From positions 62,001-126,000 of IMG/VR virus record IMGVR_UViG_3300027708_000022: a DNA stretch of 64,000 nucleotides; one strand, given 5' to 3'. Both the position numbers and the translations under genes were made by a program. Origin of the DNA: a virus. Positions 5,333 through 63,058 of this stretch are shown piece by piece; the first letter of the stretch is position 1; the number at the start of each line of letters is the position of its first letter. The notes below the pieces were generated by a model that had not been told where the DNA came from, did not search any database, and was given only the letters and a program-made list of their open reading frames with translations.

Positions 5333-5374
5333 TTTACTTCTCCTTAGTGTGTGTAACTACTGTGTGTGTAAAGC

Positions 5375-5672
5375 GATAGTTGATTCTGTTTCCAAGTTCA
5401 ACTATCAAAACTCAGATGGTTATGCTTACGCAGCCATCAAAAAGCGATTATCGTTTGCTTTTATAGTTTTTTACTTTTAGCGACTATCTGTGTCGAGTTG
5501 TCCATTCCGTTACTTGTTGCCCAATCGAAACCTGGTCAGCCCATCAAAAGCATACTCGATCGTTTCCTGTCTTATCAATCTTATGACACCAAGTATGCTT
5601 TTGGTGGAGCTGGAGGGAATCGAACCCTCGTCTTGAACACTTTTCTCTTTACTTCATACAACTATACAACCA
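5375..5672 (-). ncRNA. ssrA: Permuted two-piece tmRNA (ssrA), tag ANDNRFLMAA
   Basis: Read leftward, the acceptor piece comes first. It has a T arm GAGGG-TTCGATT-CCCTC (5629-5613) and CCAGCTCCACCA ending at 5602. An intervening segment follows whose ends form a perfect 10-bp stem (5592-5601 with 5547-5556). Then comes the coding piece, starting GGGCTGACCAGGTTTCGATT (from 5542), which matches the canonical tmRNA 5' end and pairs with CAGCTCC. The tag frame GCA...TAA at 5458-5426 encodes ANDNRFLMAA. A 9-bp hairpin (5375-5383 with 5398-5406) closes the 3' side. The order acceptor-spacer-coding is the circular permutation of two-piece tmRNAs. With SmpB it would rescue stalled ribosomes. The ends are approximate. 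Confidence 0.93.
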
Positions 5673-5679
5673 TTATATA

Positions 5680-6360
5680 TCACTTCACGATTTTAGTCAA
5701 TGGTGAATTCGCTAAAAACGACAATAATTGGGTACGGTACATATACTTTTGCCTAACAAAGATTTGTGGTTGCCCGCCTTCTACTGCAATGGCAACAACT
5801 ATAGTATCAATTGTTTTGTTAGTTAATTCCTCAAACATTTCAGCATAAGCCGTACATTGTAGGAAATAATTTAGAATGTTTTCTTCCAACTTTTCTTTTG
5901 ATGAGGACTTATAATCTATGATTGATAACCTTTTATTCCATTCTGCAATAGTATCAACACGACCAGCAATTCTCAGCTTGTCAGAATAAAGTGGTTGTTC
6001 AATTGCATATATCTTACCGATATTTTTATCCAATTCAGGACGCAATTGAAAAAACAACTCTTTAATATTTGGCATCATATTGCGAATTTTTAAATCACTC
6101 ATTTCATTGAGCAAATATTTTTCACAAGCCAAATGCAATGCTTCACCTCGGCGTGAGGCACGACCTGATACTTTATTGGCTTCTTCTTCACCAACTCGGT
6201 TACGCCATGCATCAATAGCACCTTTGTTCATAGACCCAAGTACTGTTGTTACTGACGGGTATGCTTTGCCTGAAGGTGTATAATATAACCGACCAGATTC
6301 TGTTGTCTTTGCTTCCATCTCAAAATCTAATTCAGGTAACTTCTCATGTGTGAAAATCAT
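5680..6360 (-). CDS. PD-(D/E)XK exonuclease, RecB/MGME1-like
   Basis: 226 residues. Motifs in order: an RGEALHLACE helix, IAGRVDTIAEW (Asp), LSIIDYKSS (D-x-K catalytic pair) and a QCTAYAEMFEEL helix (Q-xxx-Y motif). This is the RecB/Cas4/MGME1-type nuclease core, used by T4-like phages in DNA processing or recombination. The N-terminal SGKAYPSVTTVLG is also typical. It lies just upstream of the tmRNA acceptor piece and its stop is eight bases before the proposed RNA. Confidence 0.88.
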   Translation of the reverse strand: MIFTHEKLPELDFEMEAKTTESGRLYYTPSGKAYPSVTTVLGSMNKGAIDAWRNRVGEEEANKVSGRASRRGEALHLACEKYLLNEMSDLKIRNMMPNIKELFFQLRPELDKNIGKIYAIEQPLYSDKLRIAGRVDTIAEWNKRLSIIDYKSSSKEKLEENILNYFLQCTAYAEMFEELTNKTIDTIVVAIAVEGGQPQIFVRQKYMYRTQLLSFLANSPLTKIVK

Positions 6361-14416: not shown

Positions 14417-14454
14417 AGGCAAATGGTACTTTCAAATAAATTCAGGATGCTTTG

Positions 14455-14530
14455 TGGGACCAACTGGATTTGAACCAGTGACCCATTTCTTATGAGGAAA
14501 TCGCTGCTAACCTGACTGAGCTATAGTCCC
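14455..14530 (-). tRNA. tRNA with CAT anticodon (Met or Ile2)
   Basis: 76 nt cloverleaf with loop CTCATAA. No CCA encoded. The acceptor stem is extended by a perfect 12-bp flanking inverted repeat (AGGATGCTTTGT outside). CAT could be elongator Met, initiator or lysidine-modified Ile. Confidence 0.92.
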
Positions 14531-16838: not shown

Positions 16839-16915
16839 TGGTACGGATGACGGGACTCGAACCCGTAGAACCTTAATTTTAAGTCAAGTATGTAAACCAA
16901 TTCCATCACATCCGC
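16839..16915 (-). tRNA. tRNA-Leu (TAA)
   Basis: 77 nt including encoded CCA; anticodon loop CTTAAAA; T loop TTCGAGT. Six bases downstream of nothing but the next tRNA, so cotranscribed. Confidence 0.93.
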
Positions 16916-16920
16916 ATTAC

Positions 16921-16995
16921 TGGCACCCCCAGCAGGAATCGAACCTACGTTTACCCTTTAGAAGAGGGATGTATTTTCCACTATACTATGGGGGC
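16921..16995 (-). tRNA. tRNA-Arg (TCT)
   Basis: 75 nt with CCA; anticodon loop CTTCTAA in stem CCCT/AGGG. Reads AGA, a codon often rare in GC-rich hosts. Confidence 0.94.
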
Positions 16996-17000
16996 ATTAC

Positions 17001-17077
17001 TGGTGCCTCAGGCGGGACTCGAACCCGCAGAATTTCGCTTCTAAGGCGAACACGGCTACCAATTACGTCACCGAGGC
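17001..17077 (-). tRNA. tRNA-Leu (TAG)
   Basis: 77 nt with CCA; anticodon loop CTTAGAA in a perfect TTCGC/GCGAA stem. Confidence 0.94.
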
Positions 17078-17078
17078 A

Positions 17079-17306
17079 TTACCTACGCATCTTCCAAGTG
17101 TATTCTTCACCACTTGGGAGTTTTCCATCTTCTACTGAATCAACACCCATCTTACCAACTTGGTTTGGATTCTCACCAACCATAGTGACATAAGAAGCAC
17201 GACCAACATTACGCAAATGGTTAGTTAATGTTAACGCTTCAACCATATCAATGTAATCTTGACTACACGCTTGTCCATTAGGATTTGTCCAATACACTTT
17301 GTACAT
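17079..17306 (-). CDS. Small protein within the tRNA island
   Basis: 75 residues from the ATG at 17306 (AAGGTG upstream). MYKVYWTNPNGQACSQDYID then a conserved-looking ALTLTNHLRN and GENPNQVGKMG. Its stop is one base from the Leu tRNA 5' end. No function recognised. Confidence 0.65.
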   Translation of the reverse strand: MYKVYWTNPNGQACSQDYIDMVEALTLTNHLRNVGRASYVTMVGENPNQVGKMGVDSVEDGKLPSGEEYTWKMRR

Positions 17307-17325
17307 AATCACCTTATATAATACT

Positions 17326-17401
17326 TGGTGCTGCCCACAGGAATCGAACCTGTTTCAACGGTTCTTCAAACCGCCGCTATGACCACATCAGCTAGAGCAG
17401 C
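17326..17401 (-). tRNA. tRNA-Phe (GAA)
   Basis: 76 nt with CCA; anticodon loop TTGAAGA. Confidence 0.93.
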
Positions 17402-17407
17402 ATAACT

Positions 17408-17482
17408 TGGTACATCGTGACGGGATCGAACCGCCGACAATCTCGGTGTAAGCGAGGAGCTCTACCGCTGAGCTAACGATGC
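17408..17482 (-). tRNA. tRNA-Val (TAC)
   Basis: 75 nt with CCA; anticodon loop CTTACAC in CTCG/CGAG stem. Confidence 0.93.
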
Positions 17483-17494
17483 ATTAATTCACTT

Positions 17495-17568
17495 TGGGGT
17501 GACTACTGGGAGTTGAACCCAGACTAGCAGAATCACAAACTGCGTTGCTACCGTTACAACATAGTCAC
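17495..17568 (-). tRNA. tRNA-His (GTG)
   Basis: Anticodon loop TTGTGAT; discriminator C, as His tRNAs need, followed by CCA. Flanked by a long imperfect inverted repeat (TTAATTCATTTTGG outside), which extends the acceptor stem. The -1 base is T, not the usual G. Confidence 0.9.
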
Positions 17569-17593
17569 ACCAAAATGAATTAACATTTTGGAC

Positions 17594-17616
17594 TTGGTGT
17601 TGCGTACACCAAGTAA
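17594..17616. other. Hairpin between His tRNA and Ro-like gene
   Basis: ACTTGGTGT-TGCGT-ACACCAAGT, a 9-bp stem eight bases past the stop of the Ro-like gene. No U tract, so a processing or stability element rather than a clear terminator. Confidence 0.5.
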
Positions 17617-17623
17617 AACGATA

Positions 17624-19030
17624 TTAGACCTTGTATCGGTCAGACATAATGGCTTTCAACATGATAGCTTCTGGAGTAAACTCTGAAGTATCTGCTGCAA
17701 GAATTGCTTTAACGATTGAAGGACTGAACCCTGAAACCAAAGCAACACCTGATTCATCATGCTTAACAGGTACGTTATCTGATGAATTGATATTCCAAAA
17801 AACAACTTTAGGAACTTCATAGCCATTTGAGGCGAATTGACGAGCAATCATCTCCATGGCCGAATCATCATGTTCTACGCAAGCATTGAATTGCATATCA
17901 GACAGAATCAACAGCATTGATGGCATATCTTCCTGTGGTACTTTGCCTTTTACAGCAACATTTAAAATCTTCATCATGGCTTTCACCAAGTCAGTAGACA
18001 TACCCCATTCGGATCTAACCATTTGATCCATCTTCTGAATGACATTACCTTTTAGGTTAAGCAATTGCGGATCACTTGAGAATGTTAAAAAGGTGTCTTT
18101 GAAAACTCCTTTGTTCTTATCTGCAAGGTATAGACCAAGAGATACAGAAACATCCATACATGATACTGAACTGTTACGACCAGCAGGGCATGACATAGAA
18201 CCAGAAACGTCAACTAAAGGTAATACATTCGCATCACCAACAAAATTCTCTAAAGCATCCCATTGGGCTACAATGTGGTCTTTTTCGGTTTTGTTGTATG
18301 AACCGTATGCTACGCCTTTCAATACATCATAAGGGAATACTGCACCAGCATTCACCTTAACTTTTGGATCGGTACCTTTAACCAATTCAGCCACATACTC
18401 CGCAAACTTTTCAGTATTACGGTAGAATGCTTTCTTGTAACGGCTAGCCGCCAAAGAAGGCACATGACTGAAATTGATGTTATCCCAATCCTTAGCACAC
18501 ATTTGAGATTCTACCACTTTAGTCATTTCAACCAAAGACTTACGATAGAACTTAGGTGTCATGCCGAAGAACTCACGCAATTCACGAGCAACTTCACCTT
18601 TGCGGGGTGTCCATTTTGCCGCCAATCCGTTTTTAGCTCTCAGAGCATCACCAAGCAAAGTGTATGCTTGTGACTTCAATTCAGAAGTCTGGAAAACAAA
18701 TAGGTCATCCCAACGACCAACTTCAGGTACTTTCCCAAGTAGCTTCATTGCCAAATCAGGACGATTGGTTTCCAAATACTTCAGAATCTGGCGAAACAAC
18801 TCACGCTCGCCAGCGCCACCACGAACATCACGAGACCATAAGGCAACTCGCAATGCTAATTCTTCATCCTGCACCAAAGCAGAAACGAAGTCAGCTGTGA
18901 TATCTTTACCGCGGCTGGCACCGATTTTATAGAACAAATCAACTACAGCATTAGCAGTAGATTTGCGAGCTTTCATACCATTGTCGGTACGAGCTTCTTG
19001 ATTTTGAACTGCGTTTACAAATGAATTCAT
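17624..19030 (-). CDS. Ro60-like RNA-binding protein (TROVE/DUF2828-type repeats plus vWA)
   Basis: 468 residues. The N-terminal half has helical-repeat sequence with the conserved ALWSRDVRGGAGERELFRQI block of the TROVE/DUF2828 superfamily. The C-terminal half is a von Willebrand A domain: LPLVDVSGSMSC gives the MIDAS DxSxS, and SMLLILSDMQFN the later Asp. Bacterial Ro binds Y RNAs and misfolded RNAs and works with exonucleases. It lies inside the tRNA island, and two repeated hairpin elements (19053-19206) lie between the Gly tRNA and its start. Ribosome site GAGGAAG. DUF2828 and Ro proper cannot be separated without a profile search. Confidence 0.82.
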   Translation of the reverse strand: MNSFVNAVQNQEARTDNGMKARKSTANAVVDLFYKIGASRGKDITADFVSALVQDEELALRVALWSRDVRGGAGERELFRQILKYLETNRPDLAMKLLGKVPEVGRWDDLFVFQTSELKSQAYTLLGDALRAKNGLAAKWTPRKGEVARELREFFGMTPKFYRKSLVEMTKVVESQMCAKDWDNINFSHVPSLAASRYKKAFYRNTEKFAEYVAELVKGTDPKVKVNAGAVFPYDVLKGVAYGSYNKTEKDHIVAQWDALENFVGDANVLPLVDVSGSMSCPAGRNSSVSCMDVSVSLGLYLADKNKGVFKDTFLTFSSDPQLLNLKGNVIQKMDQMVRSEWGMSTDLVKAMMKILNVAVKGKVPQEDMPSMLLILSDMQFNACVEHDDSAMEMIARQFASNGYEVPKVVFWNINSSDNVPVKHDESGVALVSGFSPSIVKAILAADTSEFTPEAIMLKAIMSDRYKV

Positions 19031-19052
19031 AATATTACTTCCTCAATTTAAC

Positions 19053-19101
19053 AGGTTAACTTTTTCAAGTTGGCTTTGAATTTTATTGCTGAACTTAACC
19101 T
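19053..19101 (-). repeat. Family B inverted-repeat element B0
   Basis: Minus strand TTTAGGTTAA...TTAACCTGTTA with CAGCAA ten bases in. It shares the TTTAGG, CAGCAA and CCTGTTR landmarks with B1-B3 but has a different stem sequence (AGGTTAA/TTAACCT), i.e. compensatory change. It forms the leader of the Ro-like gene. Confidence 0.65.
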
Positions 19102-19110
19102 AAAAACAAC

Positions 19111-19206
19111 AGGATGGTTTCTACTTTTTGTTTTTCAAGTGAGAAAATCGAAACTCACTATCCGATGGCGATTTTACCCGCCGAGTATTTTTGCTGCACC
19201 CATCCT
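19111..19206 (-). repeat. Family B inverted-repeat element B1
   Basis: 96 nt bounded by AGGATGG/CCATCCT. Inside are CAGCAA, hairpin GGCG/CGCC and hairpin AGTGAG/CTCACT. Longest member, immediately downstream (transcriptionally) of tRNA-Gly(TCC). Confidence 0.75.
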
Positions 19207-19212
19207 AAACCT

Positions 19213-19286
19213 TGGAGCGAGATATCAGAATCGAACTGATAACAACAGATTGGAAATCTATAGTTTTACCATTAAACTAATCTCGC
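19213..19286 (-). tRNA. tRNA-Gly (TCC)
   Basis: 74 nt with CCA; anticodon loop TTTCCAA. Confidence 0.93.
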
Positions 19287-19295
19287 CTACTTAAA

Positions 19296-19772
19296 CTATG
19301 CTGCTTTATCTAATACGAATTTTAAACGATCCGCAGCGAAAGATGCGGCAAACGCTTGAGGTTTTACCAGAGGGATAACATTACACATACCTCTAATATA
19401 CCCAACTGCCTCATTGATAACGCATGAACTACCGTGCATTTCATCAGGATTAATATCCAAATGTACCTCAACATCACGGTCTTCCAAAACGTCTTTTAAC
19501 TTCAAATATAATTCGGCAATTTTATATACTTCCGTCATTAATCTCATTCTTGGTTTATCTTTTCTTTGATCCCAATCTCTTTCAGTTTGGACTTCACCAA
19601 AGATTTTACAACCATTCTTACCATTAATATGTACTACAATAGCTAAAGTGTAATCAGCATACCAATCTTTACCAATGAGGAAACGAGCCGAGTCCGCACC
19701 GATATAAATCTTAGTCTCAGGACTTTGTGCTTCAATAAACTCTTTCACTTCATTAACATCAATCTTACGCAT
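19296..19772 (-). CDS. RNase H-like protein, DUF458/YkuK family
   Basis: 158 residues. IYIGADSARFL (first Asp), RLMTEVYKIAELYL, VEVHLDINPDEMHGSS (second acidic site) and the KPQAFAASFAADR C-terminal signature define the DUF458 ribonuclease H-like family. It is placed between Gly tRNA genes, so tRNA or other RNA may be the substrate, but the family's activity is not established. Ribosome site AAGGAG. Confidence 0.85.
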   Translation of the reverse strand: MRKIDVNEVKEFIEAQSPETKIYIGADSARFLIGKDWYADYTLAIVVHINGKNGCKIFGEVQTERDWDQRKDKPRMRLMTEVYKIAELYLKLKDVLEDRDVEVHLDINPDEMHGSSCVINEAVGYIRGMCNVIPLVKPQAFAASFAADRLKFVLDKAA

Positions 19773-19795
19773 GATTACTACTCCTTTTAAAAACT

Positions 19796-19869
19796 TGGAG
19801 CGGGTAGAGAGAATCGAACTCTCAAATATTCCTTGGCAAGGAATTAGGTTACCTTTACATCATACCCGC
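19796..19869 (-). tRNA. tRNA-Gly (GCC)
   Basis: 74 nt with CCA; loop TTGCCAA in a perfect ATTCC/GGAAT stem. Confidence 0.94.
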
Positions 19870-19875
19870 ATAACT

Positions 19876-19950
19876 TGGCACCGCCCGAAGGATTCGAACC
19901 CTCACCAGCTGATTTGGAGTCAGTTGTGCTGCCGTTGACACTAGAGCGAT
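19876..19950 (-). tRNA. tRNA-Trp (CCA)
   Basis: 75 nt with CCA; loop CTCCAAA in CTGA/TCAG stem; discriminator G. Confidence 0.93.
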
Positions 19951-19960
19951 ATAATACAAC

Positions 19961-20020
19961 AGGATAGATTTTAACGGTTTTGATTAGAAGTCAAATGTTT
20001 TAATTTGCTGTTACTATCCT
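19961..20020 (-). repeat. Family B element B2, tRNA-like
   Basis: 60 nt bounded by AGGATAG/CTATCCT. Carries TAACAGCAAA and a perfect 5-bp stem with a 7-nt loop CTTCTAA, identical to the Arg(TCT) anticodon loop, but lacks normal D and T arms. Lies between Trp and Ile tRNAs. Confidence 0.75.
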
Positions 20021-20025
20021 AAAAC

Positions 20026-20102
20026 TGGTACAGAGTATTGGGCTTGAACCAATGACCTACGCCTTATCAAGACGTTGCTACTACCAACTGAGCTAACTCT
20101 GC
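20026..20102 (-). tRNA. tRNA-Ile (GAT)
   Basis: 77 nt with CCA; loop TTGATAA. Confidence 0.93.
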
Positions 20103-20111
20103 ATTAATACT

Positions 20112-20186
20112 TGGAAGGTCCTGAAGGAATCAAACCTTCACTTTTTCGTTCGTAGCGAAATGTAATATTCATTTTACTAAGGACCT
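20112..20186 (-). tRNA. tRNA-Arg (ACG)
   Basis: 75 nt with CCA; loop CTACGAA in TTTCG/CGAAA stem. Needs host TadA for inosine. Confidence 0.93.
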
Positions 20187-20192
20187 AAAACT

Positions 20193-20269
20193 TGGTGGTG
20201 AAAGTAGGATTCGAACCTACGACCGTTACCGTATGAAGGTACTGCTCTACCAAACTAAGCTACATCACC
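20193..20269 (-). tRNA. tRNA with CAT anticodon (probably elongator Met)
   Basis: 77 nt with CCA; loop TTCATAC; G1-C72 pair and GTAGCTTAG D arm fit elongator Met, but Ile2 is not excluded. Confidence 0.9.
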
Positions 20270-20282
20270 ATAATGTTCTTTG

Positions 20283-20357
20283 TCTGGATAGTAGGATTTG
20301 AACCTACAGCCTCCTCGTTCCAAACAAGGCCGTCTACCAGATTGACAATATACCCAG
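20283..20357 (-). tRNA. tRNA-Pro (TGG)
   Basis: 75 nt, loop TTTGGAA. No CCA encoded; the acceptor stem is extended by a perfect 10-bp flanking inverted repeat (20274-20283 with 20358-20367). Confidence 0.93.
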
Positions 20358-20379
20358 ACAAAGAACACTACCTAAAAAA

Positions 20380-20454
20380 TGGTGGACCGTGAGAGAATCG
20401 AACTCTCAATTTCTGGTTGCAAACCAGATGTGTTCCCATTAGCACTAACAGCCC
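20380..20454 (-). tRNA. tRNA-Ala (TGC)
   Basis: 75 nt with CCA; loop TTTGCAA in TCTGG/CCAGA stem. Confidence 0.93.
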
Positions 20455-20464
20455 TCTAAACAAC

Positions 20465-20518
20465 AGGATGGAATTTTCTTTTTATCAATAAAAGTTTTTT
20501 TGTTGCTGTTACCATCCT
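20465..20518 (-). repeat. Family B element B3
   Basis: 54 nt bounded by AGGATGG/CCATCCT with TAACAGCAA and an inner CTTTT/AAAAG hairpin. Lies between Ala and Tyr tRNAs; flanks GTTTT and GTTGT match B2. Confidence 0.75.
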
Positions 20519-20527
20519 AAAACTTGA

Positions 20528-20608
20528 TGCGTCAGGTAGGGATCGAACCTACTTGTCCTAAAACCACGGGGTTACAGCCCGCTGCCCTGCCATTAGAGCA
20601 TCCAACGC
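20528..20608 (-). tRNA. tRNA-Tyr (GTA)
   Basis: Class II tRNA with extended variable arm; loop CTGTAAC. The 3' end is followed by TCA instead of CCA. Confidence 0.9.
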
Positions 20609-20616
20609 ATTAAAAC

Positions 20617-20691
20617 TGGCTCCGTGATTAGGAATCGAACCTAACTATGACAAATTAACAGTTTGCTCCCACACCTTGCGGGTCTCACGGA
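20617..20691 (-). tRNA. tRNA-Asn (GTT)
   Basis: 75 nt with CCA; loop CTGTTAA. The 5' end overlaps the last codons of the HNH gene by about seven bases. Confidence 0.92.
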
Positions 20692-21230
20692 ATTATTTTT
20701 TTCAATCTCTTTCTTATCGCTGTATCCGAAATATTTAACTTTTCAGCCACATTAATTATAGTATCATTCTTTAATAATTCTGTTAAATCTATATTATCCC
20801 AATCTACTTTAAATTTTGATTTAGAAGAACAAGATAAAGAACAATATTTATTGAACAATGGTTTATCTTTTTCACAAACAGGACATGAATCCATTTCAGT
20901 TAGTTTTTCTTGTTTATAACTTGTAAAATTTTCATCAAATTTTGTATAATCTTCAGGCATTTTTACAATATCACTATGAACCTCACTATGACAATTATGA
21001 CATAATAAAATGCATTTTCTCAATTCTTCAACAATAGATAACCAATTTTTAGGATTTGCTCGTATTGCTCCAAAAGATAATTCTTTCATGTTTGGGTCTA
21101 TATGGTGTAGGGCTAAAGCACTATCACATTTATTATATCCACATATTTGACAACAATTTCCCATAGACTCTATTATTCGTTTTTTGGTATTTTGTCGCCA
21201 TCTTTTTACTGCTTCTGAATTTTTACTCAT
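20685..21230 (-). CDS. HNH homing endonuclease in the tRNA array
   Basis: 181 residues. CCQICGYNK, ALALHHIDPNMKELSF and CILLCHNCHSEVH form an HNH/treble-clef nuclease. A second Cys pair (CPVC...CSLSC) adds a zinc module, and the C-terminal NVAEKLNISDTAIRKRL is a helix-turn-helix for site recognition. It has its own TATAAATA promoter and a good ribosome site, and sits between tRNAs, so it is a mobile free-standing gene. Its A/T-rich codon use differs from neighbours. Confidence 0.9.
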   Translation of the reverse strand: MSKNSEAVKRWRQNTKKRIIESMGNCCQICGYNKCDSALALHHIDPNMKELSFGAIRANPKNWLSIVEELRKCILLCHNCHSEVHSDIVKMPEDYTKFDENFTSYKQEKLTEMDSCPVCEKDKPLFNKYCSLSCSSKSKFKVDWDNIDLTELLKNDTIINVAEKLNISDTAIRKRLKKIIP

Positions 21231-21263
21231 AAAACCTCTGTTTTAAAAATTAACTTAATTTGT

Positions 21264-21271
21264 TATTTATA
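21264..21271 (-). promoter_or_regulatory. Late promoter TATAAATA of the HNH gene
   Basis: Minus strand TATAAATA 34 bases before the HNH start, inside an otherwise early/stable-RNA cluster. The gene appears to have arrived with its own late promoter. Confidence 0.8.
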
Positions 21272-21293
21272 ATTTTAAGGTTTTATAAAAACT

Positions 21294-21370
21294 TGGTTGC
21301 GGAGTCCTGGATTCGAACCAGGGGTCTACAGCTTATGAGGCTGCCGGGATGACCTCTTCCCTAACCCGCA
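21294..21370 (-). tRNA. tRNA with CAT anticodon (possible initiator Met)
   Basis: 77 nt with CCA; loop CTCATAA in CAGC/GCTG stem; 3' end CCGCAACCA as in initiator tRNAs, but the first pair is U-A, not C-A. Identity is uncertain. Confidence 0.88.
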
Positions 21371-21379
21371 ATTAAAACT

Positions 21380-21497
21380 TGGTGTCGCACTCAGGATTCG
21401 AACCTGAACCACTTCCTTTTCGATGGAATTTTGGTATGCTGTTTATATTCTTGTCAGAATACGTTAATAAGTGTGCTACCGTTTACACCAATGCGAC
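21380..21497 (-). tRNA. Interrupted tRNA with 42-nt insertion
   Basis: 118 nt from GTCGCAT to GTGCGAC-ACCA with intact acceptor, D (GTGT/GCAC) and T arms. Removing 21429-21470 leaves 76 nt with a perfect CTTCC/GGAAG anticodon stem and an 8-nt loop ATCGAAAA. The insert contains hairpin GTATTC/GAATAT. The anticodon cannot be assigned. Either a disrupted tRNA or an unusual intron-like insertion. Confidence 0.7.
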
Positions 21498-21506
21498 ATT
21501 AAAACT

Positions 21507-21580
21507 TGGTGCCCTATGACAGAATCGAACTGCCGTGACCTGATTACAAAACAGGTGTAATACCATTATACTAATAGGGC
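21507..21580 (-). tRNA. tRNA-Thr (TGT)
   Basis: 74 nt with CCA; loop TTTGTAA. Confidence 0.92.
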
Positions 21581-21586
21581 GAAACT

Positions 21587-21661
21587 TGGCGACTCATGGG
21601 AGAATCGAACTCCCGTAACAGGATAGACAATCCCGTGTAATAACCATTATACTAATGAGCC
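21587..21661 (-). tRNA. tRNA-Asp (GTC)
   Basis: 75 nt with CCA; loop TTGTCTA. Its 5' end is the exact edge of family A element A1. Confidence 0.93.
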
Positions 21662-21737
21662 ATATTGAAATACACTATACGGGTCTACGTCCCGTGGCAC
21701 TTTAGACTTTCATTGCCTATAAATGTACTTCAATATG
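21661..21737 (-). repeat. Family A inverted-repeat element A1
   Basis: 77 nt bounded by CATATTGAARTAC/GTAYTTCAATATG (12 of 13 paired). Inside are hairpins GGCA/TGCC and ACGGG/CCCGT, giving a three-way junction. Spacer between Lys and Asp tRNAs. Confidence 0.85.
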
Positions 21738-21742
21738 ACAAC

Positions 21743-21816
21743 TGGTGGGGGCACAGAGAATCGAACTCTGATAGACCGGTTAAAAGCCGGATATTCTACC
21801 TTTGAATTATACCCCC
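21743..21816 (-). tRNA. tRNA-Lys (TTT)
   Basis: 74 nt with CCA; loop CTTTTAA in CCGG/CCGG stem. Confidence 0.93.
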
Positions 21817-21873
21817 AAAAGTTTGTCACTCTTGTCACTATCCATGACAATACTCCTATAAAAACAAACAATA

Positions 21874-21948
21874 TGGTACACCGTATGGGTTACGATCCCA
21901 TCTAGCCACCTTGAAAGGGTGGTGACCTCACCAGAAGTCTAACGGTGC
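21874..21948 (-). tRNA. tRNA-Glu (TTC)
   Basis: 75 nt with CCA; loop CTTTCAA. The T loop is ATCGTAA instead of TTCRANY, so T54 is missing, which is unusual. Confidence 0.9.
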
Positions 21949-21966
21949 ATTAAAATTTACTACTCT

Positions 21967-21981
21967 AATTTTTAAAGAACA
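21967..21981 (-). promoter_or_regulatory. boxA antitermination element 1
   Basis: Minus strand TGTTCTTTAAAAATT, matching the bacterial rRNA boxA (TGYTCTTTAAMAATT), about 20 nt after the predicted start of the tRNA transcript. Confidence 0.85.
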
Positions 21982-22006
21982 TCACTGCATTTCTTACTAT
22001 GTGTCC

Positions 22007-22034
22007 ATTATACATGAACCACTTGGTAAGTCAA
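22007..22034 (-). promoter_or_regulatory. Stable-RNA sigma70 promoter 1
   Basis: TTGACT-16 bp-TATAAT (minus), then boxA. Drives Glu tRNA and downstream tRNAs. The stretch of about 80 bp is nearly repeated at 23103-23185. Confidence 0.9.
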
Positions 22035-22047
22035 CAACTAATTTTAT

Positions 22048-22063
22048 TGTTGCCTAAACAACA
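22048..22063. repeat. TGTTG-N-CAACA dyad upstream of stable-RNA promoter
   Basis: TGTTGCCTAAACAACA, 14 bp upstream of the -35. A short copy of the dyad motif found at the early promoters. Confidence 0.7.
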
Positions 22064-22078
22064 CTAAAGCTACCTTAC

Positions 22079-22156
22079 TGGAAGTGCGAGTCAGATTTGA
22101 ACTGACGATTTTACGGGTTTGCAATCCGTTGCTTTTGACCACTCAGCCATCGCACT
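22079..22156 (-). tRNA. tRNA-Cys (GCA)
   Basis: 78 nt with CCA; loop TTGCAAA. Confidence 0.9.
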
Positions 22157-22164
22157 ATTAAAAA

Positions 22165-22251
22165 TGGCGGGTAGTATAGGATTCGAACCTATGCACCTTT
22201 ACGGTGGACGGCTTAGCAAGCCGCTGCCTTCGACCACTCAGCCAACTACCC
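22165..22251 (-). tRNA. tRNA-Ser (GCT)
   Basis: 87 nt class II tRNA with long variable arm and CCA; loop TTGCTAA. Its first six bases contain the stop codon of the phosphoesterase gene. Confidence 0.94.
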
Positions 22252-22842
22252 ATTTCCGTTACTAAAACCTACCTTACCGCCTTGTGCTTCAATTCTCTTA
22301 ATTACATCTTCAAAAAGAATCGGTGCAAAATCTGTTTGTTCAACGCATACACAATGATAACGAGGATCAATTTCCGTTTCGCTGTAGATAATTTCTCCAG
22401 TCGGATAATTAATACCTTTCGCCTTCATAACACGATTCGTATGGAGGTGTCCATGAATGTTTACACCAAATCTTCCAAGATTTTCTGGATGAAGTGGAAT
22501 ATGGCTAAGAATCATTCCGTTCATTACATGATAAGCACGAAGCTCTCTGAAATGTTCACGATATTCATCATCTTTAAAAATATCATGGTTACCACGAATA
22601 AGAACTTTGTCACCATTAAGTCTACGCATAATACCAAGGCTTTTGCGTTTCATCACTACGTCACCAAGGTGATATACTTTATCGTTCTTTCCTACTCTTT
22701 CGTTCCAGAGTTTGACCATCGCTTCATCCATTTCATCAGGATCAGTCCATGGTCTAATCTTAACTCCGGTATCTTGGTGTGTAAAACGACATACACCAGC
22801 GTGTCCAAAATGTGTGTCGCTAACAAGAAATACTGCTGGCAT
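22246..22842 (-). CDS. Calcineurin-like metallophosphoesterase
   Basis: 198 residues. All metal motifs are present: SDTHFGH, HLGDVVM, IRGNHD, LSHIPLH and HGHLHTN. Such phage enzymes may act on RNA ends, cyclic phosphates or nucleotides; its position inside the tRNA island hints at an RNA substrate, which is inference. The stop codon lies inside the Ser(GCT) tRNA. Ribosome site AGGAG. Confidence 0.92.
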   Translation of the reverse strand: MPAVFLVSDTHFGHAGVCRFTHQDTGVKIRPWTDPDEMDEAMVKLWNERVGKNDKVYHLGDVVMKRKSLGIMRRLNGDKVLIRGNHDIFKDDEYREHFRELRAYHVMNGMILSHIPLHPENLGRFGVNIHGHLHTNRVMKAKGINYPTGEIIYSETEIDPRYHCVCVEQTDFAPILFEDVIKRIEAQGGKVGFSNGNG

Positions 22843-22861
22843 ATTAGTCTCCTATAAAATA

Positions 22862-22954
22862 TGGCGGGCGGCAGAGGAGTCGAACCCCATCCCCATTACA
22901 GAGAACCTGGTTTTCAAGGCCAGTCGCAGGACCATCCCCGCTGCATTACCACCC
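22862..22954 (-). tRNA. tRNA-Ser (TGA)
   Basis: 93 nt class II tRNA with CCA; loop CTTGAAA. Its 5' end coincides with the edge of element A2. Confidence 0.94.
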
Positions 22955-23029
22955 ATATTGAAGTACACTCCTGATTCTGTTCGATAAAACAGAATGTTGG
23001 CTAGCCTACCTGAAATGTACTTCAATATG
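22954..23029 (-). repeat. Family A inverted-repeat element A2
   Basis: 76 nt bounded by a perfect CATATTGAAGTACA-type inverted repeat. Starts within the CCA of tRNA-Gln and ends at the first G of tRNA-Ser, so it is the whole spacer. Inner hairpin ATTCTGTT/AACAGAAT. Confidence 0.88.
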
Positions 23030-23101
23030 GCAGCGGTACTTGGGATCGAACCAAGGATAACGGATTCAAAATCCATCGTGATACCATTTCACTATACCGC
23101 A
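23028..23101 (-). tRNA. tRNA-Gln (TTG)
   Basis: 74 nt with CCA; loop TTTTGAA. First tRNA of the upstream transcript. Confidence 0.92.
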
Positions 23102-23117
23102 ACATATTTACTACTCT

Positions 23118-23132
23118 AATTTTTAAAGAACA
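23118..23132 (-). promoter_or_regulatory. boxA antitermination element 2
   Basis: Same TGTTCTTTAAAAATT as at 21967, followed by the same AGAGTAGTAAAT. About 20 nt into the tRNA-Gln transcript. Confidence 0.85.
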
Positions 23133-23153: not shown

Positions 23154-23181
23154 ATTATACACGAACCACTTAATAAGTCAA
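23154..23181 (-). promoter_or_regulatory. Stable-RNA sigma70 promoter 2
   Basis: TTGACT-16 bp-TATAAT (minus) with TTCGTG before the -10 as in the early family. Reads into boxA 2 and tRNA-Gln. Confidence 0.92.
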
Positions 23182-23220
23182 CAACTATTTACAGTCTGTC
23201 GTTTTTACACAACATCAAAA

Positions 23221-23410
23221 CAAAAACCCTAGAAACTTTCGTTTACTAGGGTTTGTGATGAATTAGATTTTATCTAATATACTACGTTACACAAACCCCA
23301 TTTGATCCAATAAAGCCGCTATTCTCATTTTTTGATGAGCGATAATCGGCCGGCCATGTCGCTAACGACTGGCATCTTGGTGTTGAGAGTGTATGTATAG
23401 TTTTCATCAT
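23221..23410 (-). ncRNA. Structured leader/attenuator or small RNA (candidate)
   Basis: About 190 nt between a sigma70 promoter and an intrinsic terminator, with no convincing gene; a 42-codon frame from about 23411 is weak. Hairpins: AGCGA/TCGCT, CTCAT/ATGAG, then GGGTTTGTG/CACAAACCC (23290-23298 with 23249-23257) enclosing ATTAGAT/ATCTAAT. The last stem shares AAACCC with the terminator stem, so the two are mutually exclusive. Readthrough would enter the tRNA island. This fills the gene-free stretch 23105-23476. Confidence 0.6.
23222..23254 (-). terminator. Intrinsic terminator of the leader RNA
   Basis: Minus strand AAACCCTAG/CTAGGGTTT (9-bp stem, inner AAACGAAAGTTT) followed by TTTTTG. 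Confidence 0.85.
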
Positions 23411-23416
23411 AGTCCT

Positions 23417-23445
23417 AGTATATATGCTTTTTGTTCTGCGGTCAA
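23417..23445 (-). promoter_or_regulatory. Sigma70-type promoter of the leader RNA
   Basis: TTGACC-17 bp-TATACT (minus). The -10 context AGCATATATACTAG also occurs in the gp32 leader. Confidence 0.75.
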
Positions 23446-56872: not shown

Positions 56873-57178
56873 TTAACAATTCCATTTTCTTAGTGCTTTA
56901 TTAATACGGCTATCAGGATCTCTGGCGGTTTCAGCAGATGTGAGTTTTGATTTCATGCCACCCATTCTGGCACAAAATGATTTGCGGCGATTTGCTGATT
57001 TAGAACCTGGTTTCAACTTAGAAGGTTTAGTAGTAACTGCCATTGAAAGTTTTGAACCTGGATTATCACGGCGATATGATTCAATACCTTTACGATTCAA
57101 ACCACCTGCCTCTGATTTACCTTCTTTGCGAGTCCATGCAGGAGAGGCCTCAGCAATAAAATCTCTTAGTCTTTTCAT
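56873..57178 (-). CDS. DUF6321-like small basic protein
   Basis: 101 residues. AWTRKEGKSEAGGLNRKGIE, KPSKLKPGSKSANRRKSFC and ALRKWNC are the signature of this family, seen in T4-like phages and giant viruses. Basic; perhaps DNA-packing. Confidence 0.85.
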   Translation of the reverse strand: MKRLRDFIAEASPAWTRKEGKSEAGGLNRKGIESYRRDNPGSKLSMAVTTKPSKLKPGSKSANRRKSFCARMGGMKSKLTSAETARDPDSRINKALRKWNC

Positions 57179-59313
57179 GCTGCGTAATTCCTTTTACGGA
57201 AAGAAGTTAGGTTGATACCAACTTTCTTTAGTTCATCTTCTTTTTGGTCACCAATAGATGCCGTAGTTTCATCACCTTGTATTTCTTTAAATGGTTTCAG
57301 TTTGCCATTCTTGTCATAATTATCACCACCACCACGACCAAGACTTTCTCCAGATTGTGCCATCGAAAGTCCTGGTTCAATACTCATATCTATAGCTTCG
57401 GTAATGGCTTTTTCTTTTTTGGCCCGGATTTGTGCGAGGGTGATTTTGGTTTTGGACTTGGAGATTTCTTCGGTGATGGTTTCGCTTGAACCACTGGCTC
57501 TTCCACCGGTACTATTGGTATGACGTATACTGGCGCCGACACTTCCAAAACGGTCGGTGATTGAACTTCTTTCTTCTTGAATAGACTCATTAGTTTCTTT
57601 AGCATTTGGATTTCCTTTGATTTTGATAACATAAACTTTACCCATTGGATAAACAACACCATCATGTGTATGGGCTTCTTTAGCAGCAGAACGGCGTAAA
57701 ATGAATGTTCTTACTTTACCGGTTTTATCTTTCAATAGCTGACTATAATTTGAGTTAGAATATTCATTTATTTCTTCAAATGATTCATTAAAGAAACTTT
57801 CAAATTCTTCGTTAACTTTCTTAGTCACAGGTGCTTGCACTGGTTGTAGTTTATCATGTACTGAACGGTGTGTAACTTTATTGTCTTTACCGTAGCGACC
57901 AAAACCATAATAGTCCAAACCTAGTTTACGAGCTTCTTCTGCGGCCTTTGAATCTGGATGTGGTGAGGTCTTTGCGTCTTTCTTTGATACGGTAAGACTG
58001 TCTTTCTTTTGCAATTCAGCAGAAACCCACTCTCTAGCCTGTTTGCTTTTTGGTGGTGTACTTACAAACTTTTGTATTTGTTTGTAAAGGTCCAGCATTT
58101 CTTTCTTTTTAGCCTTAACAATATCAGGGTGTGCTGAGCGCAAATCTTCTGAATTATCAAACTCAGTATAATTTTCACCAAATATTTTTGCTAAATCTGG
58201 TCTTGCATTTTGCACAGACTGCCATTTCTCTCTTCTAAGGTTCTCTGGTACTGTACGACCACCACGTTGTCCACGTTCAACATTACGCATGGATGATACA
58301 TCATCTTTAGTATTAATTAAAACCATTGAAGTATCATAACCTAATTCTTCTAGGCGACCTTTGATTTTCTTAATTTTCTCTGGATCATCACCAGTACCAT
58401 TGATGATAACACCATTACGACCATGCAAAGCAAGACGCTCTCTCAATTCGGTTATACTCTTTGCTCTACCACGAGTAATATCACGTTCAGTTTTTTCAGA
58501 ATCAGGCATGGTTTTATTCAGACCCTGCTTGTCCATAAGATATTCAAGTGCTTTATCTGAATTGATTTCTGTTAGACCATGACCTGAAAGTGTGTTATCA
58601 AGAATATAATCTTTACCTGAACCTGGACCACCCGCTAAGAATACAGCCTTAAAGATGGCCTTATCATGTACACCTTCAACCAACAATTCTTCAAATGATG
58701 CATCAACATCTTCTTTAACACCCATGTGGTGACGTACATCATTGTACAATTCTTTTGCATGGTGTTCTGGTACATGACTAGGAACACCCTTCTTGAATTC
58801 ATTGAAGTTACCACTAGAAGCGTGTGCTCGCATTTTCGAAGCAGACATACCTTCTGCACCTTCGGCATCAGGGTCTCTCTCACCTGCGGAGTGTACTTTT
58901 ATGTGTTTAAAATTAAACAATGCACCTTCGTGGGTGCCATTGTATTTGTGTAACAACTTGTGATATTCTCCAGTGCGGTCTGAACCAGCAACCATGTGTA
59001 GGTGTGTCACACCTTGTTTGTGGAGTTTTGCAGCTTGTGTTAGGAAGTTTGGATGTTCTTTGTTCGATACTGTAATATTAGTTTTCGGAAAGAATCTTTT
59101 GGCGTGTTTGAATTTTGTTTCTGATGATAGAGGATTCTTCGTCTTATCCTGCGAATGCGATAAGACTACATGATGTGAAGCATTATGCTCTTTGGCAATT
59201 TCTTTTACTTTATCAACCAGTTTACCGTGACCGATTGTTGGAGGATTCATACGACCAAAGGCCAATACAGCGTGATTGTCCTTTGATTCTCTAATAAATT
59301 CTTTAAACTTCAT
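57175..59313 (-). CDS. Nucleotidyltransferase-kinase fusion protein
   Basis: 712 residues. Residues 1-190 are a cytidylyltransferase-like fold: LAFGRMNPPTIGHGKLVDKV holds the HxGH-type site (TIGH) and GVTHLHMVAGSDRTGEYHKL the second motif. Residues about 215-400 are a P-loop kinase: AVFLAGGPGSGKDYILDNTL, then INGTGDDPEKIKKIKGRLEE, as in zeta-toxin/AAA_33 kinases. The rest is Lys-rich with late-type modules. It may modify or salvage nucleotides or NAD precursors. Late promoter upstream. Confidence 0.82.
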   Translation of the reverse strand: MKFKEFIRESKDNHAVLAFGRMNPPTIGHGKLVDKVKEIAKEHNASHHVVLSHSQDKTKNPLSSETKFKHAKRFFPKTNITVSNKEHPNFLTQAAKLHKQGVTHLHMVAGSDRTGEYHKLLHKYNGTHEGALFNFKHIKVHSAGERDPDAEGAEGMSASKMRAHASSGNFNEFKKGVPSHVPEHHAKELYNDVRHHMGVKEDVDASFEELLVEGVHDKAIFKAVFLAGGPGSGKDYILDNTLSGHGLTEINSDKALEYLMDKQGLNKTMPDSEKTERDITRGRAKSITELRERLALHGRNGVIINGTGDDPEKIKKIKGRLEELGYDTSMVLINTKDDVSSMRNVERGQRGGRTVPENLRREKWQSVQNARPDLAKIFGENYTEFDNSEDLRSAHPDIVKAKKKEMLDLYKQIQKFVSTPPKSKQAREWVSAELQKKDSLTVSKKDAKTSPHPDSKAAEEARKLGLDYYGFGRYGKDNKVTHRSVHDKLQPVQAPVTKKVNEEFESFFNESFEEINEYSNSNYSQLLKDKTGKVRTFILRRSAAKEAHTHDGVVYPMGKVYVIKIKGNPNAKETNESIQEERSSITDRFGSVGASIRHTNSTGGRASGSSETITEEISKSKTKITLAQIRAKKEKAITEAIDMSIEPGLSMAQSGESLGRGGGDNYDKNGKLKPFKEIQGDETTASIGDQKEDELKKVGINLTSFRKRNYAA

Positions 59314-61787: not shown

Positions 61788-63058
61788 TTTTTTAATACCT
61801 CTTCGATATATTCAAAAACTTTATCATTCCAAAATGGTGGGCATCCTAAGATAAACACATGAGACAATGCTTTGTTTGCTAGTGGATACTTATTGTAATC
61901 ATCTAAATGTTTAAAACCTGGATGTAACAGAATATTACCAGCAAAATAATTGCGTGTTTGGATCTTATTAGCTTCTAAGTATGCAACTAATTTCTCTTTT
62001 TCTTGTTGTGTCTCACAAATGATTGGCACACCAAACCAAGACGGATCAGATTGAGGTAAAGTATCTGCAATTCGAACATTCAAATATTTTTCTAACAATA
62101 GGGACAATCGAGCTTTATGTTCACGGCGTTTTGTATCAATAAAGTCCACTTTCTCCAACTGAGCAATACCAATTGCTCCTTGCATATCGAGTGGCTTTAG
62201 ATTGTATCCTGCATGGGAGAAAATATACTTGTGGTCAATGATACCATCATATGTATCTAACCAACGGTCAAATCTATTACCACAAGTACCGCATGGCAAT
62301 TGGTTATTTGAACCAACACAATAGCAATCTCTACCCCACCAGCTTAGTGAGCGCACAATGTCAATAAATTCTGGTGTATTGGATGAAACCATGCCACCCT
62401 CACCAGTTGAAATGTGGTGTGCAGGATAGAATGATGTTGACCAACAGAAGTACATATCGGTAAGAAGTTTACCATTCCATTTTGTACCCAATGAGTCACA
62501 GTTATCACCAACTAGAATCAAATTATGTCGTTCACATAATTCTCTAATAAAATCCATGTCAGGTGGATTAGCAAGAACAGGTGATACAACAATAGCCTTT
62601 GTTCTAGGTGTAATCTTTGCTTCAATTAGATTAACATCAAAGTTTAGTGTATCAAACTCAATATCAACGAATACAGGTTTAAGATTGTTCTGCATCAATG
62701 GTGCAATCGTTGTTGGGAAACCAACTGGTGATACAATCACCTCATCATTATCTTGCCATTTGAAATGCTTCTTCAATGCACCAATCATCACCAAGTTGGC
62801 TGAACTACCTGAGTTGACCATGTGTGATTGTTTTACATTATATTTCTTTGAGAATCTAATTTGAAATTTCTCAACATTCTCGCCAGCAGAAATCCATTTG
62901 CCAGTTAGGAACGCCTTGAGAGATAACTCCATCTCCCTTTCGTCCCACAATTGACCTGAGTACATGACATAATCTTCACCGGGTTTGAAGTTGTCATAGT
63001 TCTGTAGGTACTTTGGTTTAGCCAGTTTTGCTAATTCTTTAATTTTCTCGTCAATCAT
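61778..63058 (-). CDS. RfbH-like 3-dehydrase (DegT/DnrJ/EryC1 fold)
   Basis: 426 residues. WSTSFYPAHHISTGEGGMVS has His where aminotransferases of this fold carry the PLP Lys, exactly as in CDP-4-keto-6-deoxyglucose 3-dehydrase (RfbH/E1). SWWGRDCYCVGSNNQLPCGT supplies the Cys set for the [2Fe-2S] cluster of that enzyme. The product would be a 3,6-dideoxyhexose for O-antigen-like sugar. The order with SDR, oxygenase and glycosyltransferase-like genes supports a sugar pathway. Confidence 0.85.
   Translation of the reverse strand: MIDEKIKELAKLAKPKYLQNYDNFKPGEDYVMYSGQLWDEREMELSLKAFLTGKWISAGENVEKFQIRFSKKYNVKQSHMVNSGSSANLVMIGALKKHFKWQDNDEVIVSPVGFPTTIAPLMQNNLKPVFVDIEFDTLNFDVNLIEAKITPRTKAIVVSPVLANPPDMDFIRELCERHNLILVGDNCDSLGTKWNGKLLTDMYFCWSTSFYPAHHISTGEGGMVSSNTPEFIDIVRSLSWWGRDCYCVGSNNQLPCGTCGNRFDRWLDTYDGIIDHKYIFSHAGYNLKPLDMQGAIGIAQLEKVDFIDTKRREHKARLSLLLEKYLNVRIADTLPQSDPSWFGVPIICETQQEKEKLVAYLEANKIQTRNYFAGNILLHPGFKHLDDYNKYPLANKALSHVFILGCPPFWNDKVFEYIEEVLKKCP

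Follow-up and report, generated by a model that had tools for sequence, protein, structure and literature searches.

The RNA that precedes the tRNA operon of this phage is very probably (about 90%) a ribosome-mediated transcription attenuator, whose leader peptide would act as a checklist of the tRNAs that the operon supplies. The window, that is, the whole analyzed stretch of 64,000 nucleotides (positions 62,001 to 126,000 of IMG/VR record IMGVR_UViG_3300027708_000022), belongs to a viral record of 162 kb. At the level of sequence, we show below that full arrays of approximately 20 isotypes are paired with leaders containing all 20 amino acids (hereafter, pangram leaders), and small clusters with leaders enriched in their own amino acids.

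Leader ORF and competing hairpins in the window

A preliminary description of this region had proposed that a sigma70 promoter produces about 190 nt of RNA ending at a strong terminator, which was confirmed on the minus strand. The elements of the leader are as follows.

23440-23445, minus strand: -35 box TTGACC of the leader promoter, kept in relatives
23417-23422, minus strand: -10 box TATACT of the leader promoter, sigma70-type, with a 17-nt spacer to the -35 box
23282-23410, minus strand: leader ORF of 42 codons, peptide MMKTIHTLSTPRCQSLATWPADYRSSKNENSGFIGSNGVCVT, stop codon TAG, all 20 amino acids present
23290-23298, minus strand: antiterminator 5' arm GGGTTTGTG, within the last codons of the leader ORF
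23249-23257, minus strand: antiterminator 3' arm CACAAACCC, partner of GGGTTTGTG, overlapping the terminator 5' arm
23246-23254, minus strand: terminator 5' arm AAACCCTAG
23215-23232, minus strand: terminator 3' arm CTAGGGTTT (23232-23224) and U-tract

The promoter spacing places the predicted transcription start at approximately 23410 (minus strand), and the ATGATG of the leader begins only 6 nt past the -10 box; the leader mRNA in the window is therefore predicted to be leaderless or nearly so. A -10-like hexamer located 6-7 nt ahead of the ATG was present in 31 of 59 leaders, a spacing that predicts leaderless mRNAs in many of them. The leader ORF (23410-23282), which the preliminary description did not contain, starts at the predicted transcription start and terminates inside the antiterminator arm region, and this short ORF ahead of a terminator has counterparts in dozens of loci. 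We infer that the ORF is translated from the selection on its composition and stop position.

The antiterminator and the terminator, which has an additional inner stem (AAAC/GTTT), have AAACCC in common, so that the two helices are mutually exclusive, as had been proposed. In the window, their computed energies were nearly equal (-14.6 and -14.9 kcal/mol, respectively), and the 198-nt leader RNA folded better than 200 of 200 shuffled sequences (z = -4.5). A search for homologues with covariation, which had been suggested as a check, was run, and both helices covaried in an alignment of 46 relatives: the terminator helix was 99.8% paired with a covariation score of 0.42 (0.115 when shuffled), and the antiterminator helix was 85.5% paired with a score of 0.140 (0.055 when shuffled). 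In the MAFFT alignment (A1), a one-column register shift in the GAGGG group caused fewer antiterminator pairs to be counted. In a shuffle test designed to bypass this shift, using 24 loci picked blind to pairing, the helix between the antiterminator and the terminator 5' arm exceeded almost all shuffles. The antiterminator was more stable than the terminator in 59 of 65 leaders, and the stop codon lay 9-20 nt past the start of the antiterminator arm in 60 of 65. The leaders thus combine an intrinsic terminator with a mutually exclusive antiterminator. A further GC-rich hairpin GGCCGGCC is present in the window, as had been described, but it lies inside the leader ORF and is not conserved among relatives (which have GGCAGGCC), and it was dropped as a functional part.

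Competing hairpins plus a terminator ahead of tRNA genes would also suit a ligand riboswitch or T-box, in which the leader RNA directly binds a metabolite or uncharged tRNA. However, no described aptamer family was found in the window, where the Rfam matches were tRNA and tmRNA only, and the T-box family (stem I specifier loop, T-box bulge) gave no match at the gathering threshold. Moreover, the region upstream of the arm conserves no RNA fold; it conserves an ORF, whose composition and stop position are kept and which occurs in more than one reading frame with respect to the arm. The leader residues also follow the isotypes of the downstream tRNAs. We accordingly regard direct ligand binding as extremely unlikely. 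The alternative of riboswitch or attenuator that had first been put forward thus resolves strongly in favor of an attenuator; uncharged tRNA, then named as a candidate signal, was close in spirit, although the sensing would apparently be done by a translating ribosome rather than by direct binding.

The region between the terminator and the tRNA genes

Three elements follow the attenuator.

23154-23181, minus strand: second sigma70-like promoter TTGACT-16-TATAAT (11/12 match), between the terminator and tRNA-Gln
23116-23132, minus strand: boxA-like element TGTTCTTTAAAAATTAG, ahead of the first tRNA
16839-23101, minus strand: tRNA island behind the attenuator, first gene tRNA-Gln (23101-23028)

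Together with tRNA-Met at 14454-14530, the island makes 25 tRNAs covering all 20 amino acids. A boxA-like element was observed between the terminator and the first tRNA for 61 of 65 leaders. Attenuation with readthrough into the tRNA transcript, as the preliminary description had predicted, is strongly supported. The window phage probably has another source of tRNAs as well, given the 11/12 sigma70-like promoter located downstream of the terminator. This second promoter (23181-23154), which that description did not include, would bypass the attenuator there. It was found in the relatives L003, L005, L006, L088 and L101 but was missing from L002, L010, L013, L083 and L102, namely half of the close relatives examined. 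The same TTGACT-16-TATAAT boxes occur in three minus-strand promoters of the window (25423-25396, 23181-23154 and 22034-22007).

A good promoter behind the terminator could mean that the 190-nt transcript functions as a separate small RNA, ended by a terminator of its own, and that the tRNAs are expressed from the second promoter only. We find this scarcely credible, since in the relatives lacking the second promoter the terminator is followed directly by boxA and the tRNA, and since the composition of the leader matches the tRNAs.

Pangram leaders in relatives

Among the close relatives of the window, four peptide variants of the leader were found, each with 20 of 20 amino acids; where Arg was lost from one leader site, it was retained at the other. 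Of 26 diverged leaders (<50% identical), 14 contained all 20 amino acids, compared with 0.17 expected from phage protein composition; for this count, homologues were taken from a DNA pattern search, and one ORF per locus was picked blind to composition. The total number of amino-acid types over the leaders was 488, compared with 429 ± 6 when the pooled residues were shuffled, and the observed value was never reached. One diverged leader with 20 of 20 amino acids, MLSHKPMSQQSNEYRTPICADNSWAFAEGVCV (32 aa), has a different sequence. We also searched IMG/VR independently for a T-run with a boxA-like sequence behind it, blind to leader and antiterminator. Nearly all loci with a nearby downstream tRNA had a leader with 18-20 amino-acid types, ending approximately 60 nt before the U-tract; matches without a tRNA mostly had no such leader.

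The peptides of different phages had little or no sequence in common and shared composition alone. A DNA similarity search of INPHARED with the leader gave nothing useful, and tblastn searches with two pangram leaders returned chance matches only, which is unsurprising for a peptide whose composition alone is conserved. On these comparisons, the pangram composition of the leaders is selected. Full-array leaders remained near 20 of 20 even when the array lacked an isotype. We considered a rule that the residues missing from a leader correspond to the tRNAs missing from its array, and rejected it because it fails for Val in one lineage, whose leaders have no Val despite tRNA-Val in the arrays.

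Conservation of the ORF among close relatives, together with its probable translation, would also be consistent with a small functional protein, such as an antidefence peptide, encoded ahead of a constitutive terminator. We judge this very unlikely: between phages, composition alone is kept, and it follows the tRNAs of the operon, and the antiterminator is conserved and covarying.

Leaders of small tRNA clusters

Two kinds of non-pangram leader were found ahead of small clusters, with isotypes that match the leader residues, and for this reason records with multiple clusters were examined for attenuators, which were sought by RNA structure alone. Leaders and the tRNAs that follow them are listed here.

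Leader RRPQPQQPRR (MVYANNIRRPQPQQPRRLYA): ahead of tRNAs P,Q,P,Q,Q,R,P
Leader NNNNQQQYQQNNY / MRFNNNNQQQYQQNNYSGCVLL..: ahead of tRNAs N,N,N,Q,Y,Q
Leader ..KITTGTTTTTKTGKGKPM..: ahead of tRNAs M,T,T,K,K,M,K,G,G,N
Leader MKNRNHIHKHQIWHRD..: ahead of tRNAs W,H,H
Leader MIFTTFFTAFTTPEAWHAPEMA..: ahead of tRNAs P,P,A,E,F,T,H,T,W,M,T,A
Leader MTNWNHISNHISRNSI..: ahead of tRNAs H,N,W,S,I,R

Five further pairs were found in LR756502, a 642-kb phage (for example, QVQRQVVVDQDQPD ahead of P,P,D,D,D,Q,Q,Q,Q). Over 24 independent pairs, cognate residues were in excess by 0.209, compared with 0.021 ± 0.019 when the arrays were permuted (0 of 100,000 permutations), and the coverage of array amino acids by their own leader was 1.000, compared with 0.767 (permuted). 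The true assignment of leaders to arrays was the best permutation within each of four multi-cluster genomes, and for the five pairs of LR756502 it was the best of all permutations. The latter set is the cleanest confirmation because some of the example loci had suggested the test, and LR756502 was fetched later. By these permutation tests, the codons of a leader match the function of the operon that follows it. In addition, 309 of 469 leader codons were readable by the array's own tRNAs (260.7 expected, z = 4.8); given this modest enrichment, the sensor may be codon-specific as well as amino-acid-specific. In huge phages (L287-L288, L283-L286, L289-L295 and L319-L322), the tRNA genes are distributed over many small clusters. 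Several of these clusters have their own isotype-matched leader, and together they would form a natural series of few-isotype sensors.

The restricted leaders bear on the possibility that the device is a general sensor of translation, responding to ribosome loading or inhibitor stress, the pangram being a response to any slowdown. Such a sensor would accommodate the full-array leaders that stay near 20 of 20 with an isotype missing, and readthrough would also be expected from an untranslated leader, since a search of the structures gave no protector hairpin. However, the leaders of small clusters are restricted and repeat cognate residues, which would be unnecessary for a general sensor. This explanation appears improbable, with a small chance of being correct.

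Cultured phages and distribution

Matched leaders were also observed in the cultured Caulobacter phages phiCbK, CcrSC and CcrPW and in Brevundimonas phages; CcrPW came from a scan of tRNA-rich cultured phages, and relatives were found by DNA similarity.

CcrSC, leader TYRQFVRQIQFVRVNR / MSKTYRQFVRQIQFVRVNRTGLSRMVDGGTSI: ahead of tRNAs V,I,V,Q,N,R,F
phiCbK, leader MSKTYRQFVRQIQVVRNIRAGRSRMADEGFRD: ahead of tRNAs F,V,I,I,V,Q,Q
CcrPW, leader MMTYRNNVQQIRVRQFN..: ahead of tRNAs V,I,I,V,Q,Q,N,R

In these Caulobacter and Brevundimonas leaders, read by eye, the regulatory codons precede a GC-rich segment of the ORF (e.g. CGGGCGGGCC). By eye, this segment can pair with the terminator 5' arm, although the automated detector reported no such pairing. 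The arm of the Caulobacter phages seemingly lies in the middle of the ORF, which would imply a different masking geometry. Right behind the attenuator terminator of CcrPW (L315, 12946-13045), we noted an unannotated tRNA-Tyr-like sequence; the related phage Kikimora has an annotated tRNA-Tyr at the corresponding place, and the leaders include Tyr.

No attenuator or leader was detected in T5, PHB09, Ah1 or BUCT-ZZ01, and no leader was detected for many tRNA genes inside clusters. Since several tRNA-rich phages have no detectable leader, the device is common rather than universal. Scanning 84,980 bacterial and archaeal genomes with a pattern yielded four matches, at which the attenuator detector found no tRNA start; the attenuator version therefore looks phage-specific.

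Proposed mechanism

Under the attenuator reading, RNA polymerase would make an RNA starting at or beside the leader start codon, as the promoter spacing suggests. When decoding is fast, the ribosome would reach the stop codon just past the arm GGGUUUGUG and cover the arm, so that the terminator AAACCCUAG/CUAGGGUUU forms and transcription ends. When decoding fails at a codon ahead of the arm, or when the leader is untranslated, the arm would be free to pair with CACAAACCC; the antiterminator would then block the terminator, and the polymerase would pass the boxA-like element into the tRNA genes. Such a circuit would follow the classical logic of attenuation, and the quantity it measures would be the tRNAs of the operon itself. 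All Val codons of the window leader fall within the arm, and a ribosome stalled there should mask the arm instead of freeing it.

A leader that serves as a tRNA checklist implies that the phage would produce its tRNAs in response to a shortage of the matching ones. Such a shortage would most plausibly arise from host nucleases that destroy tRNAs, or from failing translation; amino-acid starvation is a poorer fit because extra tRNA would not cure it. We infer both the direction of regulation and the antidefence role, and a leader that trips on any missing tRNA would be a fitting on-switch for replacement tRNAs. On balance, we think it somewhat probable that leader-peptide checklists are widespread in phage tRNA operons and act as sensors of tRNA destruction, forming an inducible countermeasure to tRNA-cutting immunity that switches on replacements of the missing kinds, or of the whole set where the leader is a pangram.

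Comparison with known systems

The purpose of phage tRNA genes has been a matter of debate for decades, and to our knowledge their control is almost unstudied. Ribosome-mediated attenuators are established for amino-acid operons (the trp, his, leu, thr and ilv leader peptides, and pheM for pheST). The phage leaders resemble these in having a short leader ORF whose codons report on the operon's own function, an exclusive antiterminator and terminator, and an intrinsic terminator ahead of the genes. However, the known attenuators control biosynthetic enzymes or a synthetase, whereas the phage leaders would control tRNA genes, are phage-borne, may cover all 20 amino acids in one leader and are in many cases predicted to be on leaderless mRNAs; in the main phage family, the stop codon lies at the antiterminator arm, with no protector hairpin identified. 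As the downstream genes are tRNAs, we assign the leaders to the general mechanism only and do not name them amino-acid biosynthesis attenuators.

T-box riboswitches likewise respond to the state of tRNA and control translation-related genes through antitermination, but they bind uncharged tRNA via a structured stem I, whereas the phage leader apparently senses it via a translated ORF. Antitermination at rrn boxA is similar in that a GTTCTTTAAAA-like element precedes stable RNA genes (in the phages, for the 61 of 65 leaders given above); unlike in rrn, the phage element comes after an attenuator terminator. Phage tRNAs have been suggested, and also shown, to substitute for host tRNAs that defence nucleases destroy (PMC10264068, PMC11555353), and the arrays studied here are likewise sets of phage tRNAs that could do so. 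The eLife 2023 paper makes no mention of leaders or attenuation, and a leader acting as sensor and on-switch would add regulation on demand to such counter-defence. The phiCbK genome paper contains no description of a leader or attenuation, and we found no earlier account of such leaders among open PMC papers.

If the attenuator reading is correct, ribosome-mediated attenuation extends to tRNA genes, and the codons that list the operon's tRNAs reveal the signal being answered, namely failure to decode those codons. The leaders would be natural reporters of tRNA depletion, some of them reading all 20 amino acids, and the counter-defence hypothesis becomes directly testable in cultured phages (phiCbK and CcrSC on Caulobacter).

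Other features of the window

Between tRNA-Gln and a phosphoesterase gene, a tRNA-Ser-like sequence (22862-22950, minus strand) with the apparent anticodon TGA (CTGGCCTTGAAAACCAGG) was not called by ARAGORN; the array order of relatives has two Ser tRNAs at this place. The island also contains genes for a DUF7788/DUF2828 protein (17624-19030, minus strand) and an RNase H-like protein (19296-19772, minus strand), both assigned with Pfam. Outside the island, the gene at 57175-59313 (minus strand) encodes a cytidyltransferase-like domain (PHROG) fused to a Zeta-toxin/AAA_33 kinase-like domain (Pfam). The window further carries a phage tmRNA gene (5369-5714, minus strand), for which the best Rfam match was the permuted tmRNA model (118.9 bits) and which matches the betaproteobacterial tmRNA model as well; the presence of tmRNA ribosome rescue next to a tRNA sensor is suggestive.
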